Shown: one piece after another, positions 1,008-11,477 of the stretch
How positions within the stretch are numbered: the first letter of the stretch is position 1
How the letters are laid out: each line of letters begins with the position of its first letter
From: Planctomycetia bacterium
Lineage (GTDB): Bacteria > Planctomycetota > Phycisphaerae > Phycisphaerales > SM1A02
Assembly: GCA_005787685.1 (NCBI GenBank)
Contig: SYAC01000048.1
Location: 1 to 64,000 of the forward strand
Length of the DNA stretch: 64,000 bases
Direction: 5' to 3'
Notes under the pieces: generated by a model
The model's input: the letters and a program-made list of their open reading frames with translations, nothing else
What the model was told of the DNA's origin: nothing
Database searches by the model: none
Made by a program: the position numbers and the translations under genes

Positions 1008-3002
1008 ATGAGCGACGCGCAATCATCCAAGGTCGACCAAGTGAATGCATTGGAGGTCGAGCCAGCGTGGTGGCGTAATCAATTATTGATTCCATGTGTT
1101 GCTGGGATTTTTTTAATACTTGCATGGAGTTTGCAGCGTGGCTGGATTGTGGTCAATGACAATGCGTTGTTGCGTTGGTGCCTGCCAAGCAAATGGAGCG
1201 TGACCAATGATGGCGTGGCGCTTGTGTGCTTGACGGTGGTGTATGTGGTGGCCGGCTGGAACGCGTTTCTGGATGGCTTGCGCATGGCATTCAAAGCGCG
1301 GCTGGATATTGACTTTCTCATGGTGGTGGCCGCGATCGCCGCTGCGTGGATTGGCGAGGGCATTGACGGCGGGCTTTTGCTCTTTCTTTTTTCGCTGGGA
1401 AATGCGCTTGAACATTACGCCATGGGCCAGTCGCGCAAGGCCATACGCGCACTTGGCAAGTTGGCTCCAAAGTTTGCAAATGTAAAGCGCGGCGCGCAAG
1501 AAATTGAAATTGCGGTTGATCAACTTGTAGTGGGCGATGTCGTGGTGGTGCGCCCTGGCGAGCGACTGCCCGCTGATGGAAATATTTTGGCGGGTAGCGG
1601 CAGTATCGATCAAAGTCCCATCACTGGTGAAAGCGTGCCAGTTGCAAAAGAAGTGAGCGATGAAGTCTTCGCCGGAACCGTGAATGGCGACGGCAGCCTG
1701 GAGATTTGCGTATCGCGGCCAAGTTCCCAATCCACCATGGCGCGGATGATTCTTTTGGTGGAGGAGGCGCAGCAACAGAAGGGACACACACAGCGCGCCG
1801 CCGAGGCGTTTACACGCATCTATGTTCCTTGCGTGGTTGTGGGCACTATTTTGGCGCTTGTTGTTCCATATTATTTTGGCTGGCTGACATTTGATGAATC
1901 ACTTTTGCGCGCTATTGCCATGCTTGTGGGCGCAAGTCCGTGTGCGCTTGCCATTAGCACCCCCGCCGCTGTTCTTTCTGGCGTGGCGCGCGCGGCGCGA
2001 TCGGGTGTGCTGATCAAGGGAGGACTGCACTTGGAGGGGCTGGCCATTATTCGCGCGATCGCCATGGATAAAACCGGCACGCTCACCAATGGCCGTCCGC
2101 AGATTGTTGGCATTTTCACGGCGGATGGCGTGAGCGAGCGCCAACTTTTTAAAACCGCCAGCGCCATTGAGCAACGCAGCGAACATCCAATTGCCAAGGC
2201 GATTGTGCGCGCCGCGCAGGCGAAAGACATTCATGTTGCGGCGGCCGAGAATGTAAGTGCCATTCAAGGCAAGGGCGTTACGGGCACCGTGAACGGAAAG
2301 ACCATAGAGGTTGGTTCTGCGCGCCTTATGCGCGAACGAGGCGCCATACTCAATGAAAAAATGGAAACCGCTTTGGCGCAACACGATGCCAGTGGCAACA
2401 CGGTTGTCGTATTGAGTTCCCAAGAAAAAGTGCTGGGCTTTATTGCGCTGACGGATCGCCCACGCGCCGAGGCTGCCCAAGCCATCCGCTCGTTGCATGC
2501 GCTGAATGTGCGCCCCGTGATCATGCTCACGGGTGATCGCGAAGGGGTGGCGCAAGCCATAGCTAACGATGTAGGCGTAGACGAAATAGAGGCTGAACTT
2601 TTACCGCAGGATAAAATCGAGCGCGTGAAATCGCTGCTTGAAAAATATCATGCGATTGCAATGGTGGGCGACGGCGTGAATGACGCGCCCGCGTTGGCTA
2701 TGGCCACGGTTGGAATTGCAATGGGCCGCGGCGGCACGGATGTAGCGCTTGAGGCCGCTGACATTGCGCTTATGGCCGATGATTTACAGCGCATACCATT
2801 TACGATTCGTCTGGCCCGATTTGCCCGCAAGGTGATCCGTCAAAATGTGGCTGTCAGTATGGGCATGGTTTTTATTCTGATCCCACTTACTTTAAGCGGC
2901 CTGATTGGCACCACACTTGCCGTGATCATGCACGAAGGCAGCACTGTTGCGGTGGTCATCAATGGCTTGCGTTTACTGGCGTTTCGCGAGCCTCAAAAGT
3001 AA
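1008..3002 (+). CDS. P1B-4-type heavy-metal-transporting ATPase
   Basis: A 664-residue P-type ATPase expected to export a transition metal across the cytoplasmic membrane using ATP. All core motifs are present: actuator TGES (206-209), the membrane metal site Ser310-Pro-Cys312, phosphorylated Asp354 in DKTGT, a Ser-Glu-His-Pro nucleotide-domain motif near 391, and GDGVND (554-559). The SPC motif together with HEGST at 642-646 in the last helix is the signature of subgroup P1B-4 (CoaT, CtpD, CzcP), which moves Co, Zn, Cd or Fe. There is no N-terminal CxxC metal-binding domain, as usual in this subgroup. The first 100 residues hold two hydrophobic helices. No metalloregulator gene lies next to it, so the metal cannot be read from context. 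Confidence 0.93.
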   Translation: MSDAQSSKVDQVNALEVEPAWWRNQLLIPCVAGIFLILAWSLQRGWIVVNDNALLRWCLPSKWSVTNDGVALVCLTVVYVVAGWNAFLDGLRMAFKARLDIDFLMVVAAIAAAWIGEGIDGGLLLFLFSLGNALEHYAMGQSRKAIRALGKLAPKFANVKRGAQEIEIAVDQLVVGDVVVVRPGERLPADGNILAGSGSIDQSPITGESVPVAKEVSDEVFAGTVNGDGSLEICVSRPSSQSTMARMILLVEEAQQQKGHTQRAAEAFTRIYVPCVVVGTILALVVPYYFGWLTFDESLLRAIAMLVGASPCALAISTPAAVLSGVARAARSGVLIKGGLHLEGLAIIRAIAMDKTGTLTNGRPQIVGIFTADGVSERQLFKTASAIEQRSEHPIAKAIVRAAQAKDIHVAAAENVSAIQGKGVTGTVNGKTIEVGSARLMRERGAILNEKMETALAQHDASGNTVVVLSSQEKVLGFIALTDRPRAEAAQAIRSLHALNVRPVIMLTGDREGVAQAIANDVGVDEIEAELLPQDKIERVKSLLEKYHAIAMVGDGVNDAPALAMATVGIAMGRGGTDVALEAADIALMADDLQRIPFTIRLARFARKVIRQNVAVSMGMVFILIPLTLSGLIGTTLAVIMHEGSTVAVVINGLRLLAFREPQK

Positions 3003-4801: not shown

Positions 4802-5215
4802 TTACTTTGGCGCCGATGGAATGCCCAACGCGCCATCTCCCGCCGCTTTCACGCGCGTCCAAGAATAATCCATTTGCTTTTCACGCAACGGGCAAAAGTC
4901 TTTCACTTTGCGCGCGATGAACTGCGCGCCATTGATCTTAATTTCATACACGCCGGTTTCATCCACACATAATTTGGTCTCAGGGCGATTTCGAAACGTG
5001 ACTATTTTCCCATCGAAAGTGTAATCGCCCACAATGGCGCGGGTCTTGGGGCCAGTAAATGACAAAGTGAATAACCCTGTGTCCTCGCAAGTCAATGTGG
5101 TTGAGTCAAAATCACTTTTCCACGAACCAAGCAGTATGGTGCTAGAGACTTTTTCGGGCTCAGCGGCGCAACTTGCCACTAAAACGAAAGCCACAATGTG
5201 CAGTATTTTTTTCAC
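4802..5215 (-). CDS. small lipoprotein, translationally coupled to the upstream beta-barrel gene
   Basis: Predicted 137-residue lipoprotein of unknown function. The frame is open further upstream, but the natural start is the GTG at 5215-5213: it gives a Lys-Lys n-region, a hydrophobic stretch and the lipobox LVASC, and it sits one base after the TAG stop of the beta-barrel gene (TAG-T-GTG), so translation is probably coupled by re-initiation. The mature part contains several beta-like segments, a GSWKSD start and three further cysteines that might form a disulphide. I do not recognise a family. It is the last gene of the cupredoxin/cyclase/beta-barrel group and may be a periplasm-facing partner of the barrel. 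Confidence 0.7.
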   Translation of the reverse strand: MKKILHIVAFVLVASCAAEPEKVSSTILLGSWKSDFDSTTLTCEDTGLFTLSFTGPKTRAIVGDYTFDGKIVTFRNRPETKLCVDETGVYEIKINGAQFIARKVKDFCPLREKQMDYSWTRVKAAGDGALGIPSAPK

Positions 5216-5216
5216 A

Positions 5217-6662
5217 CTAGAACTGTATAACAAGTTCGACCGCGAAGAGGTTTTGTCCTGGATCAATTGTGCCCGCCTCCTCGGTGTAGCTGTACTGCAC
5301 CTTGAATTGCGTGAAGCGATTGATCTTGAAACCAAGACACGCGTCAACGCGCCACAAATTGTTGTACCAAGAGGTTTCAGAACCAGCTCCTGGACCAGTT
5401 GCTGGAGTGACATTGGAATACAACTGCTGATTCCAGCGCCCCGAAAGCCAAAATTGCGGCATAAACTTCCATTTGCTTTCTATGAAATAGCTGTACGCAC
5501 TAATGTTACCAACCGCCTTGCCAACACTCGCATCTGGAACCTCATATTGACTCCACGCAAATTCGCTCCAAAATTCAAGCGGTCCATGCGCATAGGAAAT
5601 ATCCGTGCCCACCACATTTTGACGCGATTCGCTAATGGAAGAACCCGCTTTGCTTGTGGTTGAAAAACGATCATACGCCGCCTGACTTATATATGAACCA
5701 CTGCTTCCACTCACTCCAATATTCCACGCGGCATCAGGACGAAATCCCGCGCGCCCCGTGAAGGTTGGATAATTAAATCCGCGGTTCCACAAGTCCCACT
5801 CTTGGGGCCGACTGGAAAGCGAGGCGTTCTTCATTTCAAATGCCCAATCAAGTTGTTGCAGAGTTCCCACCGTGCCGTTCAGTTGAAAGCCACTGGCGTA
5901 ACTTGGTCCCCACACAATTGGGATCCATTTCGTGACAGGAGGCGCTGAATTTTTTCTGGCCACCATGGATGTTGTGTTGGGCGCGATGCCCGCGCCGTCG
6001 TTGCCATCCGTAATGGAAGTCATTTGTCCATACATCACGGGGGCGTTGATAAGCGAGTTCTGCGTGGAGAAATGCCTGTTCGTCCATTGACCAAACGCGG
6101 TCTGGAACTTTCCGCCTTTGAAATTCAACACTGGAGTATCAAATGGCGTGACTTGCGCGTAATACTCCGCCGGTTGCGACTGAACGGATGTTTCGGTGGG
6201 ATCAAAGCCACGGTTGACCAATCCCAAGAACACAAATTCAAGGTGCTTGGAAATATCCAATGTGAACAACCCACTTAAAACTGGCGCAAAAATTTGCCCG
6301 TTGCTGGTCTGAATAAATCCGGGAGGCGGCGTACTGAACACCATGTAATCCAATGTCAACCACATCTCGGCGTTGAAACTAATTTGTCCATCCTCCGTGC
6401 CAAAGGATTGAAGCTCTCGCAAGCGCTCAATGAATGATTCCATAGGATCGCCCGTATCCGTAGGTGTGTTTATTTGCGCAACCGCCGACTCCGCCGCCAC
6501 AATTTGCGCGGTCGTTGAAGGGGTGCCAGTCAAAGTCGTTGGCGCAGCGGCAGATTGCGCGCTAGCAGTCTGCGAACTTGTTGGCGAGGGAACAACTGCC
6601 GCAACTTGCGCAGCGCGCGCGGAGCTTGCGCACAGAAGCAACGCGAGCACTTTCTGGTTCAT
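5217..6662 (-). CDS. outer-membrane beta-barrel (porin-like) protein
   Basis: A 481-residue exported protein. Residues 1-18 form a Sec signal peptide ending in an Ala-rich cleavage region, followed by a Thr/Ser/Ala/Pro-rich linker to about residue 70. The rest alternates polar and aromatic residues in many short strands and ends in Val-Ile-Gln-Phe; a terminal Phe is typical of outer-membrane barrels recognised by the BAM machinery. The start ATG overlaps the stop of the cyclase gene (ATGA), and its own stop is one base before the next start. It resembles generic porin-like barrels but no named family is recognised. By position it is part of the cupredoxin-cyclase operon. Confidence 0.75.
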   Translation of the reverse strand: MNQKVLALLLCASSARAAQVAAVVPSPTSSQTASAQSAAAPTTLTGTPSTTAQIVAAESAVAQINTPTDTGDPMESFIERLRELQSFGTEDGQISFNAEMWLTLDYMVFSTPPPGFIQTSNGQIFAPVLSGLFTLDISKHLEFVFLGLVNRGFDPTETSVQSQPAEYYAQVTPFDTPVLNFKGGKFQTAFGQWTNRHFSTQNSLINAPVMYGQMTSITDGNDGAGIAPNTTSMVARKNSAPPVTKWIPIVWGPSYASGFQLNGTVGTLQQLDWAFEMKNASLSSRPQEWDLWNRGFNYPTFTGRAGFRPDAAWNIGVSGSSGSYISQAAYDRFSTTSKAGSSISESRQNVVGTDISYAHGPLEFWSEFAWSQYEVPDASVGKAVGNISAYSYFIESKWKFMPQFWLSGRWNQQLYSNVTPATGPGAGSETSWYNNLWRVDACLGFKINRFTQFKVQYSYTEEAGTIDPGQNLFAVELVIQF

Positions 6663-8473
6663 ATTGGCGCTCCCACTGATTGATTTTTATCAACGCTCAA
6701 TTCAAACGCTTGCACTGGATTGTCAAAACCTTTGACTTTCAACGGCGGCAAATTTGTGACAATAAATGTGCTATCTAAATATTGCCGCACACCTTGATCA
6801 ATGTAAAGCGTATTCGCTGGCGCCATGGAACATAATCGGGCCGCAAGATTCACGCGCTCGCCAAGCACCGTGTAATTCAAGCGCTTCTTGGAACCCATGC
6901 AGCCCACAATGATCACCCCAAAGGCCACGCCAATTCCAATTTCAAATGGATGTTTGGAGTCTTGATTTAACTGTTGTCGCACTCGCAACATATCCAAGGC
7001 GCACGCGGCGGCGCGCGCGGCGTCATCGGGTTTGCTATTTGGCGCGCCAAAGATGGCCATGACCATGTCGCCCACAAATTTGTCCACCACTCCGCCGTGG
7101 CTATAAATCACATCGGTCATGGCGCTCATGTGGTCGTTTAAGACCGCCACAATTTCGTTTGGCGTAAGGCGATTAGTGAGCGGAGTGAAGCCACGAATAT
7201 CAGCGAATAACACGGCAACTGGCGCCGCCTTTGCGCTGACATCAAGCGTGCCAGATAACAATTGATCCGTCACGGTCCGATCTGTCACGGCGTCAAGCAC
7301 GCCGCGATATTTGTCACGCAGCGCAAGACCCTCGCACATATTGTTAAAGCGCTCGCCTAACACACCTAGTTCGTCGCGCCGATTCACGGTGATTCGCCCC
7401 GTATAGTCGCCGCCGGCAACCTTGCTTGATAAAATTGAAAGTTGTTTGATTGGTTTGGCTAACCCAAGCGCCACCAAATACGCCAACACAATGGAGCCGC
7501 ATGCGCCAATAAGCACGGCGCCTACATATTGAATGCCAAGTTGTCGTATTTCTTTCTGCAGTGGCGCCAAGCTTGCGGCCATCACAAAATATACTGGCGG
7601 GATTTGCTGACCTAAATTGTACGCATGGGTTAACCAATCCGAGTTTTCTATTGAGATTTCTAATTCCGTTTGTGCCGCTTGGTCAACGCCTGTATCGCCA
7701 GCGTGCTGTCCCTGCTCTAGCAAATTTGCGCCACTTGCTGAAGGTGTCTGGCCGATGCGATTGGCGTATGCGACAGCCATGGCGGCATTCAACTTAGCGG
7801 CGACCTTCTCCGGCTCCGTCATTTGCCCGCCATACAACTGCGCTCCCAGCAACAACCCATTTTTCATTTCTCCGCCATCCGCCATACGCATTGGCTTGGT
7901 TGCGGCGTAGTCAAAAATCAATGCGAGTGTTCCTAAAAAACCTTCGCCGTCTACATCGTCAATGGGCGTGCAGATCATTTCATAGGCTTGCTCCTCAAAG
8001 GCGAAATACACAATGCGCTGAGTTGGTGGGCCAGGCTGCGACTTGAACTGCTTCACGGCCACAACCACCGCGTCGTCAAGTTTGGGCTGGTCGGTTCCCG
8101 GAGCAATCACCTCATTGTTGGCGTTGAGAAATAAATATGAATCCGCCTGCCGCCTACCAACCGCGGTTTCGCCTTGCGCCAGGAAAAATTCGCGAAGCTC
8201 GTCGAAGGCCACGTCAGCCAGCAAGACGCGATCGTTTTGTTGTAGCGCCGCAAAAATCCTAGGAGTTCGCGCAAGCCGTGTGCACCTGGCTTGAATCACT
8301 CCAAGTTCCGCTTCACGAATTCCAATCATTCCCCTGATTGTGACACGAAATACATCATTCATTTTCTGCTTGTACAAGTCCTGCGCCGAAGTAATGCTGT
8401 ACACAGAAACAATCGATGTTGAAATCAACATAATTGCCAATATGGCTAAAGCAATGCGAGTAGAAAACTTCAA
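6659..8473 (-). CDS. membrane adenylyl cyclase with extracytoplasmic sensor and HAMP domain
   Basis: A 604-residue class III nucleotide cyclase. It has a transmembrane helix at about 6-26, a periplasmic Cache-like sensor at about 40-305, a second helix at about 315-340, a HAMP linker at about 340-395, and a catalytic domain at about 415-595. Metal-binding Asp425 (FADIRGFT) and Asp469 (FVGDM), the adenine-reading pair Lys465/Thr535 and transition-state Asn542/Arg546 are present, which points to ATP as substrate and cAMP as product. HAMP plus periplasmic sensor means the output depends on an extracytoplasmic signal. Its stop overlaps the start of the beta-barrel gene, so the two are co-translated. 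The cupredoxin-like gene lies 176 nt upstream on the same strand and is a plausible ligand or redox partner. Confidence 0.9.
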   Translation of the reverse strand: MKFSTRIALAILAIMLISTSIVSVYSITSAQDLYKQKMNDVFRVTIRGMIGIREAELGVIQARCTRLARTPRIFAALQQNDRVLLADVAFDELREFFLAQGETAVGRRQADSYLFLNANNEVIAPGTDQPKLDDAVVVAVKQFKSQPGPPTQRIVYFAFEEQAYEMICTPIDDVDGEGFLGTLALIFDYAATKPMRMADGGEMKNGLLLGAQLYGGQMTEPEKVAAKLNAAMAVAYANRIGQTPSASGANLLEQGQHAGDTGVDQAAQTELEISIENSDWLTHAYNLGQQIPPVYFVMAASLAPLQKEIRQLGIQYVGAVLIGACGSIVLAYLVALGLAKPIKQLSILSSKVAGGDYTGRITVNRRDELGVLGERFNNMCEGLALRDKYRGVLDAVTDRTVTDQLLSGTLDVSAKAAPVAVLFADIRGFTPLTNRLTPNEIVAVLNDHMSAMTDVIYSHGGVVDKFVGDMVMAIFGAPNSKPDDAARAAACALDMLRVRQQLNQDSKHPFEIGIGVAFGVIIVGCMGSKKRLNYTVLGERVNLAARLCSMAPANTLYIDQGVRQYLDSTFIVTNLPPLKVKGFDNPVQAFELSVDKNQSVGAPI

Positions 8474-8649
8474 GCGTATTTACCGAACAGGGTTGCTGGT
8501 GACAGAATGAACACTTTTATTCCTTGCAAACGAAATTGCGTACTCGAACTATCAGGGAACTCAACATCAATGGTACAACATGGGTTCCCATATTTTCATG
8601 CAGTTCAAATTTCTGATCGTAGTTGGTTGTTGCCTGGCTGAAGGAAAGT

Positions 8650-9540
8650 TTATTTTGCGCGCGCGCTTTGTTGCGCATGATTAGACCAATCCACTTTTAC
8701 CGTGGCGCCTTCTGTTAAGTCGACCTTCATTTCAAAAGATTCCCTAGGGCCAAGCCACACGTGGAATGTGTGCGCCCCGGCGGGTAAGTAGGGCAACTTA
8801 AAGTTGCCTTTGGCGTCGGTCACCACAAAGAACGGCGTATCCACAACCACAATTTGCGCGCGCATGTGCTCGTGAATTTCACAAAACAAACTCACCGTGC
8901 CCGGTTTGTCAAACACCACGGCGTCAGGCTCCTCGCCTGCGCGGTAGCGCCCCAAATCAAATTTGCGCGCCGCGGAATAACTAAATACCGAGTGGTACAT
9001 GGGGTCCTTGTTTGGAAACGCAACCGGCGTTCCTGTTTGCACCGCCATCACGCAGGGACGAAATTGAAATCCGCGCTGATCCATGGTTGGCGCTTTCGCT
9101 ATTGGCACGGACTTGGAATCAAGCGGCGGGAAAGAACCCACCATCCACACCACGCTTGTTGGCGGATCTGGTGGATCGACAACTGTTGTGGTGCGCGCGC
9201 CATATTTTTCTTTGGTACGGGGCGCGGCTTTCAAAGGTCGCACGGGTACAACGCCTTCAAGAGTTGCCGTGCCGGCGGGCTTTGCCGCACTGACCGCGGG
9301 CTCAGTTGGCGTGCTTGTTGTCGCTGACATTGCAGTTGCTGGCGCCGTCTGCGCCGCGGATGTTTGCTCTGAAGATTGTTGATTTATTTCTTGCGATTGC
9401 GGCCGTTCTTCAACACTTGCAATTGCGCCGTTGAACAAGGTATTTGAGGAATTCGAGCCAGCCGCCACAACATTTTTTGTGGCAAATAGAAACGCCACAA
9501 TAATTCCTAGCCTGCTTATGAATAGACACTTATGAACCAC
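8650..9540 (-). CDS. exported cupredoxin-like protein with a carboxypeptidase-regulatory-like domain
   Basis: A 296-residue secreted protein, GTG start. Residues 1-27 form a signal peptide, about 28-90 a Gln/Ser/Thr/Ala-rich linker, about 95-235 a cupredoxin-like fold, and about 236-285 a beta-sandwich of the carboxypeptidase-regulatory type (TDAKGNFKLPYLPAGAHTFHVW). Type 1 copper ligands can be proposed: His183 (HSVFS), Cys220, His223 and Met226 in CEIHEHM. This matches proteins often annotated as methylamine-utilisation or plastocyanin-like. Probable role: periplasmic copper or electron-carrier protein, perhaps a sensor partner of the downstream cyclase. No Mau pathway genes are nearby, so methylamine metabolism is not supported. 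Confidence 0.8.
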   Translation of the reverse strand: MVHKCLFISRLGIIVAFLFATKNVVAAGSNSSNTLFNGAIASVEERPQSQEINQQSSEQTSAAQTAPATAMSATTSTPTEPAVSAAKPAGTATLEGVVPVRPLKAAPRTKEKYGARTTTVVDPPDPPTSVVWMVGSFPPLDSKSVPIAKAPTMDQRGFQFRPCVMAVQTGTPVAFPNKDPMYHSVFSYSAARKFDLGRYRAGEEPDAVVFDKPGTVSLFCEIHEHMRAQIVVVDTPFFVVTDAKGNFKLPYLPAGAHTFHVWLGPRESFEMKVDLTEGATVKVDWSNHAQQSARAK

Positions 9541-9650: not shown

Positions 9651-9696
9651 CCTGGCTTGGCGATGCAACGTATTTCAAAGCATCCAACCGAGCCTG

Positions 9697-9735
9697 AAGG
9701 ATCCAGCTCGAGGTGAGCTGGATCCTTTCATTTTT
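9697..9735 (+). terminator. strong intrinsic terminator, plus strand
   Basis: A 13-bp perfect stem (9697-9709 with 9715-9727), 5-nt loop, then TCATTTTTATT. The T-rich side is on the plus strand, so it ends a plus-strand transcript. It may also stabilise the 3' end of the minus-strand gene whose TAA is at 9736-9734, but on that side no T-tract follows the stem. Confidence 0.8.
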
Positions 9736-10342
9736 ATTCTGCCTCTTTCATTTCGCCACCTTCTGGTTTGGGCAAGAAGCGATCTCGATCAACTTTCTTA
9801 GGGCTTTCAGTTGCATTTCCTTCATCGTGCGCCCGCGCCGCGCCACCAAGCAAATCAATGAATTCACTCACGCCTTCGGTTGGTGGCAAATCACGTACGG
9901 GCTCTGTCAAGATTTCGTGAAACAGCCTGGAATACAATTCACGATCACTCAAACCGTTCGTATGCAAAAGGAACACGCCCAAGTCCCCAAGCGACTCCAC
10001 CACCTCCCACAATTTCTCATGCAACTCGCGCTCATCAAGATCATCAGGCGCCGGTACAGCAAGGCCCAAATCAGTGAGTTGTTTCATGTTGCTGGTCATG
10101 GGCGCGATTTCCAGGTCGTACACCAACATCCAGTAAAAGCGATCCACACAATCGCCGCGCTCCGTAGCGTCTTTTACTAATTGATCAATGGCTTGCTCGC
10201 GTTGCAATGAAACATCCGCCCGTAGTCCCCGCTTGCGTGGCCGCGCGGACGGCAATGAATGACCCCCATCTTGAGCGAGATTCCTTGCACCCTCTTGCAT
10301 TTGAACCTCCGTGCCCGAGCCTAATGACTTGATTGCGACCAT
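9734..10342 (-). CDS. conserved-looking hypothetical protein, 202 residues
   Basis: I do not recognise this protein. The start is well supported: GAAAGGAGG sits 8 nt before the ATG. Residues 1-45 are polar and basic and probably disordered. About 46-165 is a helical, acidic domain (DERELHEKLWEVVESLGDLG, then SDRELYSRLFHEIL) with no signal peptide or membrane segment. The C-terminal 35 residues are charged. It is probably cytosolic. The gene is monocistronic, between the candidate small RNA and the PEP-CTERM gene. Confidence 0.7.
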   Translation of the reverse strand: MVAIKSLGSGTEVQMQEGARNLAQDGGHSLPSARPRKRGLRADVSLQREQAIDQLVKDATERGDCVDRFYWMLVYDLEIAPMTSNMKQLTDLGLAVPAPDDLDERELHEKLWEVVESLGDLGVFLLHTNGLSDRELYSRLFHEILTEPVRDLPPTEGVSEFIDLLGGAARAHDEGNATESPKKVDRDRFLPKPEGGEMKEAE

Positions 10343-10449: not shown

Positions 10450-10739
10450 ACTGCACTTTATGACTCGCCACCTCTGGTTTCATTGAAATATGCTTGAATG
10501 CAGAACCAAGTTCATGTCATAAACTATGCCCCAGACTGAGTTTGGCGCACGCGTCGTACTAGGGTCTTATAACAATATTTCCCGCAAATGCCTCGTCGCT
10601 ATTTATGAATTAAAAATGTACTATTTTCGGACAATTTATTTGCCTCACCGATTTCTTGAGGCAAGTTAAAGGTGAAGCGCGCCCTTTAACCGCCTTTCAA
10701 ATTCCTTTCTCTTCCCTTTTCACGAACAAGGATTACACA

Positions 10740-11477
10740 ATGATCAAAGCAAGTCTATTTGTAGCAGGTTTATCCAGCGTGCTAGCGTCAACAGTTTCTG
10801 CTGGCATGATTGCGCAGTGGGACTTCCAAACAACGACAAATGGCGGAACGGCTGTTGTAGCCGCGCCACTAACACCAAAATTGTTTGTAGCCAACTTTGG
10901 ATCTGGAACTTTGTATCTGGACGGTACCAATGGTTCGAGCAATTTCTTTCAGCCAACCACTGGCGTAATTGCCACAGAAATCAACGCATTCGGTGGAACA
11001 GCCTTGAATGCGACAGGTGGAATGTCAACAGTAACAACCTCTCCATCCTCCCTTGCGATAGTTGGTGGCGCAGCGAATGTTCCATCCAATACTTACGCAG
11101 CCAACGGCAAAGCCATGGTGTTTAAATTCAGCATGTCTGGCTTGTCAAATTTGGCTATTTCCTACGCTGTGCAAAGAACCTCAACAGGTTTCACAACTCA
11201 ACAATGGGATTACAGCACTGATGGAACGACCTGGAGTTCGGCGGCAACAATCACTGGAATCCAGGCCAGCTTTGCTTCTAATGGTGTCACAACCCTCAAT
11301 GTTGTCACTTTAGACAATGCGGCAAACGCATACATGCGCGTCACCTTTACGGGTGCTACTTCCTCAACGGGTAATAACCGCATGGACAACTTCCAATTCA
11401 ATGCTGATGCAATTCCTGCCCCAGGCGCCATCGCCTTGATCGGCTTGGCTGGCTTGGTAAGCCGTCGTCGACGCTAA
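10740..11477 (+). CDS. secreted PEP-CTERM sorting-domain protein
   Basis: A 245-residue exported protein. The frame is open earlier, but the ATG at 10740, preceded by AAGGA about 8 nt upstream, gives a clean signal peptide (residues 1-21, ending Ser-Ala-Gly). The body is a Thr/Ser/Asn-rich beta-type domain. It ends with AIPAPGAIALIGLAGLVSR followed by RRR: a Pro-Ala-Pro motif, hydrophobic helix and Arg cluster, which is the PEP-CTERM/exosortase sorting signal in the form common in Phycisphaerae. It is therefore predicted to be sorted by an exosortase to the surface or matrix. The ligand or function of the body is unknown. A strong terminator follows, so it is monocistronic. Confidence 0.88.
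   Translation: MIKASLFVAGLSSVLASTVSAGMIAQWDFQTTTNGGTAVVAAPLTPKLFVANFGSGTLYLDGTNGSSNFFQPTTGVIATEINAFGGTALNATGGMSTVTTSPSSLAIVGGAANVPSNTYAANGKAMVFKFSMSGLSNLAISYAVQRTSTGFTTQQWDYSTDGTTWSSAATITGIQASFASNGVTTLNVVTLDNAANAYMRVTFTGATSSTGNNRMDNFQFNADAIPAPGAIALIGLAGLVSRRRR

Follow-up and report, generated by a model that had tools for sequence, protein, structure and literature searches.

Chains in which an outer-membrane part, a periplasmic regulator and an inner-membrane messenger enzyme follow one another are described for YfiBNR of Pseudomonas aeruginosa and HmsCDE of Yersinia in three papers, where the periplasmic redox state is given as one input of HmsC (PMC4655355, PMC3375315, PMC5550408). The locus analysed here resembles these systems in the chain from the outer membrane through the periplasm to the inner membrane and onto a nucleotide enzyme. 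It differs from them in that their periplasmic part is not a copper protein, their outer-membrane part is a lipoprotein (YfiB) and not a porin, and their messenger is c-di-GMP only; the periplasmic component of our module is a cupredoxin, not a YfiR-family repressor. Another comparable case is LuxP-LuxQ of Vibrio, in which a soluble protein of the periplasm is read by a periplasmic domain of the tandem-PAS or dCache type. LuxP, however, is of the sugar-binding type, recognises AI-2 and has no copper, the output of LuxQ is a histidine kinase, and the set includes no porin. In RegB/PrrB with SenC/PrrC of Rhodobacter, a periplasmic copper protein influences a membrane signalling enzyme, as is proposed here; SenC/PrrC, however, has a Sco-type thioredoxin fold and not that of a cupredoxin, and the output of RegB/PrrB is a histidine kinase only. 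To our knowledge, the roles established for cupredoxins are electron transfer and copper handling, and none is that of a co-receptor. The CHASE4-GGDEF-EAL protein PA14_37690 of P. aeruginosa is like our module in that periplasmic copper recognition is tied to a c-di-GMP-type protein, and unlike it in that copper binds the sensor domain itself; a cupredoxin is not mentioned in the text of that paper (PMC13277305). Our literature search found no description of a set composed of a cupredoxin, a signalling enzyme and a porin.

The locus lies in a stretch of 64,000 nucleotides (the window) from a lake planctomycete. The original prediction had placed four minus-strand genes here, two of them overlapping by 4 nt and two separated by 1 nt, and this layout was confirmed to the base. 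The features are as follows.

8650-9540, minus strand: cupredoxin gene, GTG start, 296 aa
Within it, about residues 153-232: type 1 copper domain
Within it, residues 228-284: carboxypeptidase-regulatory-like domain
8992-8994, minus strand: codon of the predicted copper ligand His183, FPNKDPMYHSVF
8863-8883, minus strand: predicted copper loop C220-E-I-H223-E-H-M226 (C-X2-H-X2-M, the amicyanin spacing)
6659-8473, minus strand: gene of the class III adenylyl cyclase (by catalytic residues), a membrane protein, TTG start, 604 aa
7540-8390 (approximate limits), minus strand: periplasmic dCache-type sensor domain, from the AlphaFold2 model, PDB fold matches and homologues
7337-7474, minus strand: HAMP linker, residues 334-379 (Pfam, 1.6e-10)
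6722-7228, minus strand: class III cyclase catalytic domain, residues 416-584 (Guanylate_cyc, 6.9e-29)
5217-6662, minus strand: gene of the predicted outer-membrane barrel (porin), ATG start, 481 aa, C-terminal Phe
4802-5215, minus strand: gene of a small lipoprotein, GTG start, 137 aa, lipobox VASC
9696-9728, no strand assigned: near-perfect hairpin of 15 pairs between the upstream ORF (9734-10342) and the cupredoxin gene

The cyclase and porin genes overlap in the 4 nt ATGA, and the lipoprotein gene starts 1 nt past the porin stop. The TTG start of the cyclase is supported by an N-terminus, MKFSTR, that is common to its relatives. The gap between the cupredoxin and cyclase genes is 176 nt in the window and 191 nt in the nearest relative, while it ranges from -17 to +42 nt in all the other relatives; a scan of the 176 nt found no promoter-like site. 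The hairpin, which comes from a consensus scan only and has its T-rich tail on the plus strand, is likely to be the upstream boundary of the operon. Synteny in the window's genus extends over the entire block of flavoprotein, P-type ATPase, malic enzyme, module and gyrB. The P-type ATPase at 1008-3002 is a P1B-type metal ATPase that adjoins the module by synteny only. We had considered it as a copper exporter; it carries an SPC motif (GASPCALAISTP) and not CPC, is absent from the module in other genera, and is probably a zinc, cobalt or cadmium transporter rather than a copper transporter.

The original prediction had further named a possible type 1 copper site, a Cache-like sensor with HAMP and a porin-like barrel, and all of these reappeared in the present analysis. 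The cupredoxin comprises, in this order, a signal peptide, an Ala/Pro/Thr-rich linker, the type 1 copper domain and the C-terminal carboxypeptidase-regulatory-like domain. Its predicted copper ligands are His183, Cys220, His223 and Met226, and the profile of the family matched PDB chains of amicyanin and of copper nitrite reductase, four of four ligands being aligned. In Pfam, the window protein matched Copper-bind weakly (0.0084) and CarboxypepD_reg (4e-5), both below the cut-off, and against the amicyanin equivalog of NCBIfam (TIGR02657) it scored 16.7 bits, the cut-off being 110.2. From the ligands and their spacing, we infer that it is a type 1 (blue) copper protein, with copper binding as the prediction. 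It is like amicyanin and the small cupredoxins in the cupredoxin profile match and the C-X2-H-X2-M loop, but adds to them an N-terminal segment and the C-terminal regulatory-like domain. No methylamine dehydrogenase was seen beside the cupredoxin gene. The proteobacterial homologues bear the RefSeq name 'methylamine utilization protein', which looks misleading.

The catalytic domain of the cyclase scored 101 bits against Guanylate_cyc (cut-off 21.9) and has the active-site residues D425, K465, D469, T535, N542 and R546: the two Asp are metal-binding, Lys and Thr are characteristic of enzymes specific for ATP, and Asn and Arg serve the transition state. Of the 46 catalytic domains in the alignment, 45 keep all six residues; the exception is truncated and lacks the first. 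Judged by these residues, the enzyme is a class III adenylyl cyclase that is predicted to produce cAMP. HAMP was found by Pfam, and the sensor was assigned by other means: no Cache model of Pfam matched the window protein directly, whereas its homologues match dCache_3 or dCache_1. The AlphaFold2 model of the sensor (mean pLDDT 77) has a dCache topology, in which two transmembrane helices enclose a long N-terminal helix followed by a pair of PAS-like lobes, and its Foldseek matches in the PDB include dCache chemoreceptors, histidine kinases and LuxQ. By hhalign, the planctomycete sensor aligned with the proteobacterial dCache-HAMP region at 98.5%, a value to which the HAMP part contributes. 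In the periplasmic part of the sensor alignment, no position holds a conserved His, Cys or Met in the majority of rows. On this ground we rejected the idea that the sensor domain binds the metal itself, and the pattern fits a protein partner instead. Because the ligands are all kept in the cupredoxin while the sensor has no conserved residue of these kinds, the cupredoxin is likely to be the part that reads the metal.

The barrel model (AlphaFold2, pTM 0.75) matches porins, and OprP comes first among the PDB folds (2o4v, E 1.7e-14, TM about 0.5). No Pfam family matched the window barrel, and only a distant relative (L090) passes Porin_O_P. The structural model points to a porin-type barrel, possibly OprP/OprO-like. 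Its alignment contains no universally conserved His, Cys or Met.

The occurrence of the genes in other genomes clarified which of them belong together. Among the 151 genomes of the window's own family that were searched, 30 have a relative of the cupredoxin. In 18 genomes, a close cupredoxin copy lies on a contig that extends past it; 17 of these have the cyclase (in G147 only part of the gene, where the contig ends), and the barrel is present in 17 of the 17 where it was checkable. The genes around the module are different in the family's other genera. The order cupredoxin, cyclase, porin recurs in several families of Planctomycetota and in Verrucomicrobiota; the trios of the latter came from a DNA scan of about 85,000 species (L074, L077, L084, L085 and L087) and, in one case, from a record title (L075). 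With the barrel alone as bait, the trio came up in additional families of Planctomycetota (L146, L149, L150 and L151), and the copper ligands there are intact. The gene junctions in the relatives lie mostly between -4 and +42 nt and are very often 4-nt overlaps (ATGA). Among 49 flanking proteins scanned, no two matched the same one of the 25 Pfam families listed; the flanks are therefore unrelated, and the module ends sharply at three genes. Loss of the neighbourhood in related genomes had been set beforehand as a refutation of the proposed linkage, and the linkage came through it. Of the four-gene unit, the association of cupredoxin, cyclase and barrel stands. The lipoprotein was dropped as a fourth part: it is a lineage-specific neighbour, restricted to the window's genus and its near kin, and stays in place where the cyclase and the porin are gone. 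The scope first given, planctomycetes, proved too narrow, the linkage being much wider.

Apart from L057 and L058, all copies of the family that cover the site have the ligand set HCHM, a conservation that is partly by construction for the DNA-scan matches, whose search patterns hold part of the copper motif. It was therefore judged from the whole-protein and barrel-bait searches and from the proteobacterial copies, whose loop, CNIHD, falls outside the ligand pattern of the scan. Since the loci found with the barrel alone are also ligand-intact, the conservation is not a product of the search pattern. In one genus (L042-L048), the TAG stop of the cupredoxin gene and the ATG of the cyclase gene share a reading frame and are separated by 3 nt; a single read-through would thus yield a fusion of about 830 aa.

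The cupredoxin family is also present in Proteobacteria, where the enzyme beside it changes. In Burkholderiales, the cupredoxin is followed by a dCache_3-HAMP-GGDEF-EAL protein, and the proteobacterial loci of this kind usually include DUF3034 along with a truncated globin of group 1. A class III cyclase with dCache_3 and HAMP takes the place of this enzyme in one betaproteobacterium (L108) and in Methylovulum (L123). At two Opitutae loci (L088 and L093), the enzyme is a histidine kinase whose sensor is related; a response regulator comes before it, and after it a barrel of the family seen in the window. In total, a dCache-type enzyme stands beside the cupredoxin in 42 of the 54 loci with enough sequence; the rest show the cupredoxin with a barrel or DUF3034 only, or with no recognised partner. 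On the cupredoxin tree, which was built by a quick method and has some long branches, parsimony requires at least eight changes of output state, and the strongly supported branches force three changes of the cyclase label. As the output is swapped while the cupredoxin and the sensor are retained, these two form a constant core around which the output domain and the outer-membrane partner are exchanged. DUF3034 may itself be an outer-membrane barrel; a comparison of the porin with DUF3034 gave no signal of homology (hhalign E 0.52). The truncated globin gene adjoins the cupredoxin gene in many Burkholderiales (L059-L062 and L098-L118), which hints at a connection with oxygen or nitric oxide. 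In one of the Opitutae kinase loci (L088:12661-14869), a DUF3570 gene and an ORF that is ApbE-like by eye come next.

The enzyme is missing at some loci. In G123, the one genome of the 18 above that lacks it, the cyclase has been lost while the cupredoxin ligands and the barrel remain, and a search of that genome found only catalytic-domain matches and no full-length cyclase elsewhere. Pairs of cupredoxin and barrel without an adjacent enzyme occur at further loci (L091, L094 and L032 are evaluable; L090 and L095 are on shorter contigs), and several Verrucomicrobiales have such a pair. Because the pair persists in these Verrucomicrobiales and in G123, it has some function without the cyclase. 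Aquabacterium and its relatives have DUF3034, globin and cupredoxin without the enzyme, and four proteobacterial loci (L109, L113, L119 and L122) have neither the enzyme nor DUF3034 near the cupredoxin. In genus g16 (G015 and G052; L057:7889-9131 and L058:1365-2976), the orthologous chromosomal slot keeps a relative of the cupredoxin and the lipoprotein, and in these relatives all four copper ligands are replaced. Searches of the two genomes found no porin, and the cyclase appeared only as partial domain or linker matches. This single event in one genus suggests that a cupredoxin without its partners no longer needs the copper site.

As a module, the gene set is solid, and a copper- or redox-dependent co-receptor role is what we best infer for its cupredoxin. 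We consider it somewhat probable that the module is an envelope-spanning signalling device in which the cupredoxin would be the periplasmic co-receptor and the output domain is interchangeable; by analogy, this co-receptor would most likely be comparable to the periplasmic parts of YfiBNR or LuxPQ. In this mechanism, the porin would let a signal into the periplasm, be it copper ions or a small compound with redox activity, and the cupredoxin would change its copper or redox state. The altered protein would dock on, or leave, the dCache domain of the cyclase, and HAMP would pass the change to the dimeric catalytic domain, altering cAMP; an adenylyl cyclase, a GGDEF-EAL protein or a histidine kinase could serve as the exchangeable output. 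Both copper or redox state as the signal and the contact between cupredoxin and dCache domain are putative. Regarding the route from outer membrane through periplasm to cAMP that had been postulated, the linkage holds and the direction is the most economical reading, but cAMP is not its only end, as the output may also be GGDEF-EAL or a histidine kinase.

The same genes could instead combine uptake with separate sensing: the porin and the cupredoxin would transport, store or detoxify copper or some other substrate, and the dCache cyclase would on its own sense a small molecule related to this substrate without touching the cupredoxin. The dCache domains usually bind small molecules directly, small ligands are common in most of the fold matches of the sensor, and the cupredoxin-barrel and DUF3034-globin-cupredoxin loci without an adjacent enzyme agree with such a division of labour. 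On the other hand, the dCache-type enzyme has stayed by the cupredoxin at those 42 loci in spite of the output swaps, and the barrel lacks universally conserved residues of the metal-binding kinds noted above; we regard this explanation as rather unlikely. A conduit, in which the barrel and the blue-copper protein exchange electrons with the outside or within the periplasm while its redox poise is signalled by the enzyme, would suit the usual role of cupredoxins as electron carriers, the electron-transfer type of the ligand set and the DUF3570 gene after the one Opitutae locus. No cytochrome or haem-protein family, however, recurs among the flanking proteins scanned, and the barrel is like ordinary porins and not like a porin-cytochrome, so that the conduit is improbable. 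Clustering by chance or mere history, with no common function, had to be considered, as the block-wide synteny in the window's genus meant that the window alone could not exclude it. It is scarcely tenable, being already refuted by the pairing of cupredoxin and enzyme in three phyla with differing flanks, the repeated 4-nt overlaps and the output swaps.

We see an even chance that the signalling module represents an undescribed class of receptor, in which dCache receptors would have a soluble blue-copper protein as their sensory subunit, a paired barrel and no fewer than three interchangeable outputs, in Planctomycetota, Verrucomicrobiota and Proteobacteria. If confirmed, it would provide a general Gram-negative route from extracytoplasmic copper or redox state to cAMP, c-di-GMP or a phosphorelay, would give a function to the RefSeq 'methylamine utilization protein' proteins and a lead for DUF3034, and predicts testable partners in the culturable Herbaspirillum and Caballeronia. 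As to the target of cAMP, CRP was not found in the window's genome (91% complete), and no cNMP-binding protein was found in the genomes of three module-bearing relatives. The sole cNMP-binding protein found in the window's genome is an MscS-like channel that carries a cNMP domain at its C-terminus (L155:3767-5302, contig 35), which makes channel gating, rather than CRP-type transcription, the leading guess. Elsewhere in the window, an exported protein is encoded at 10656-11477, and its terminus, IPAPGAIALIGLAGLVSRRRR, is a PEP-CTERM-like sorting signal.
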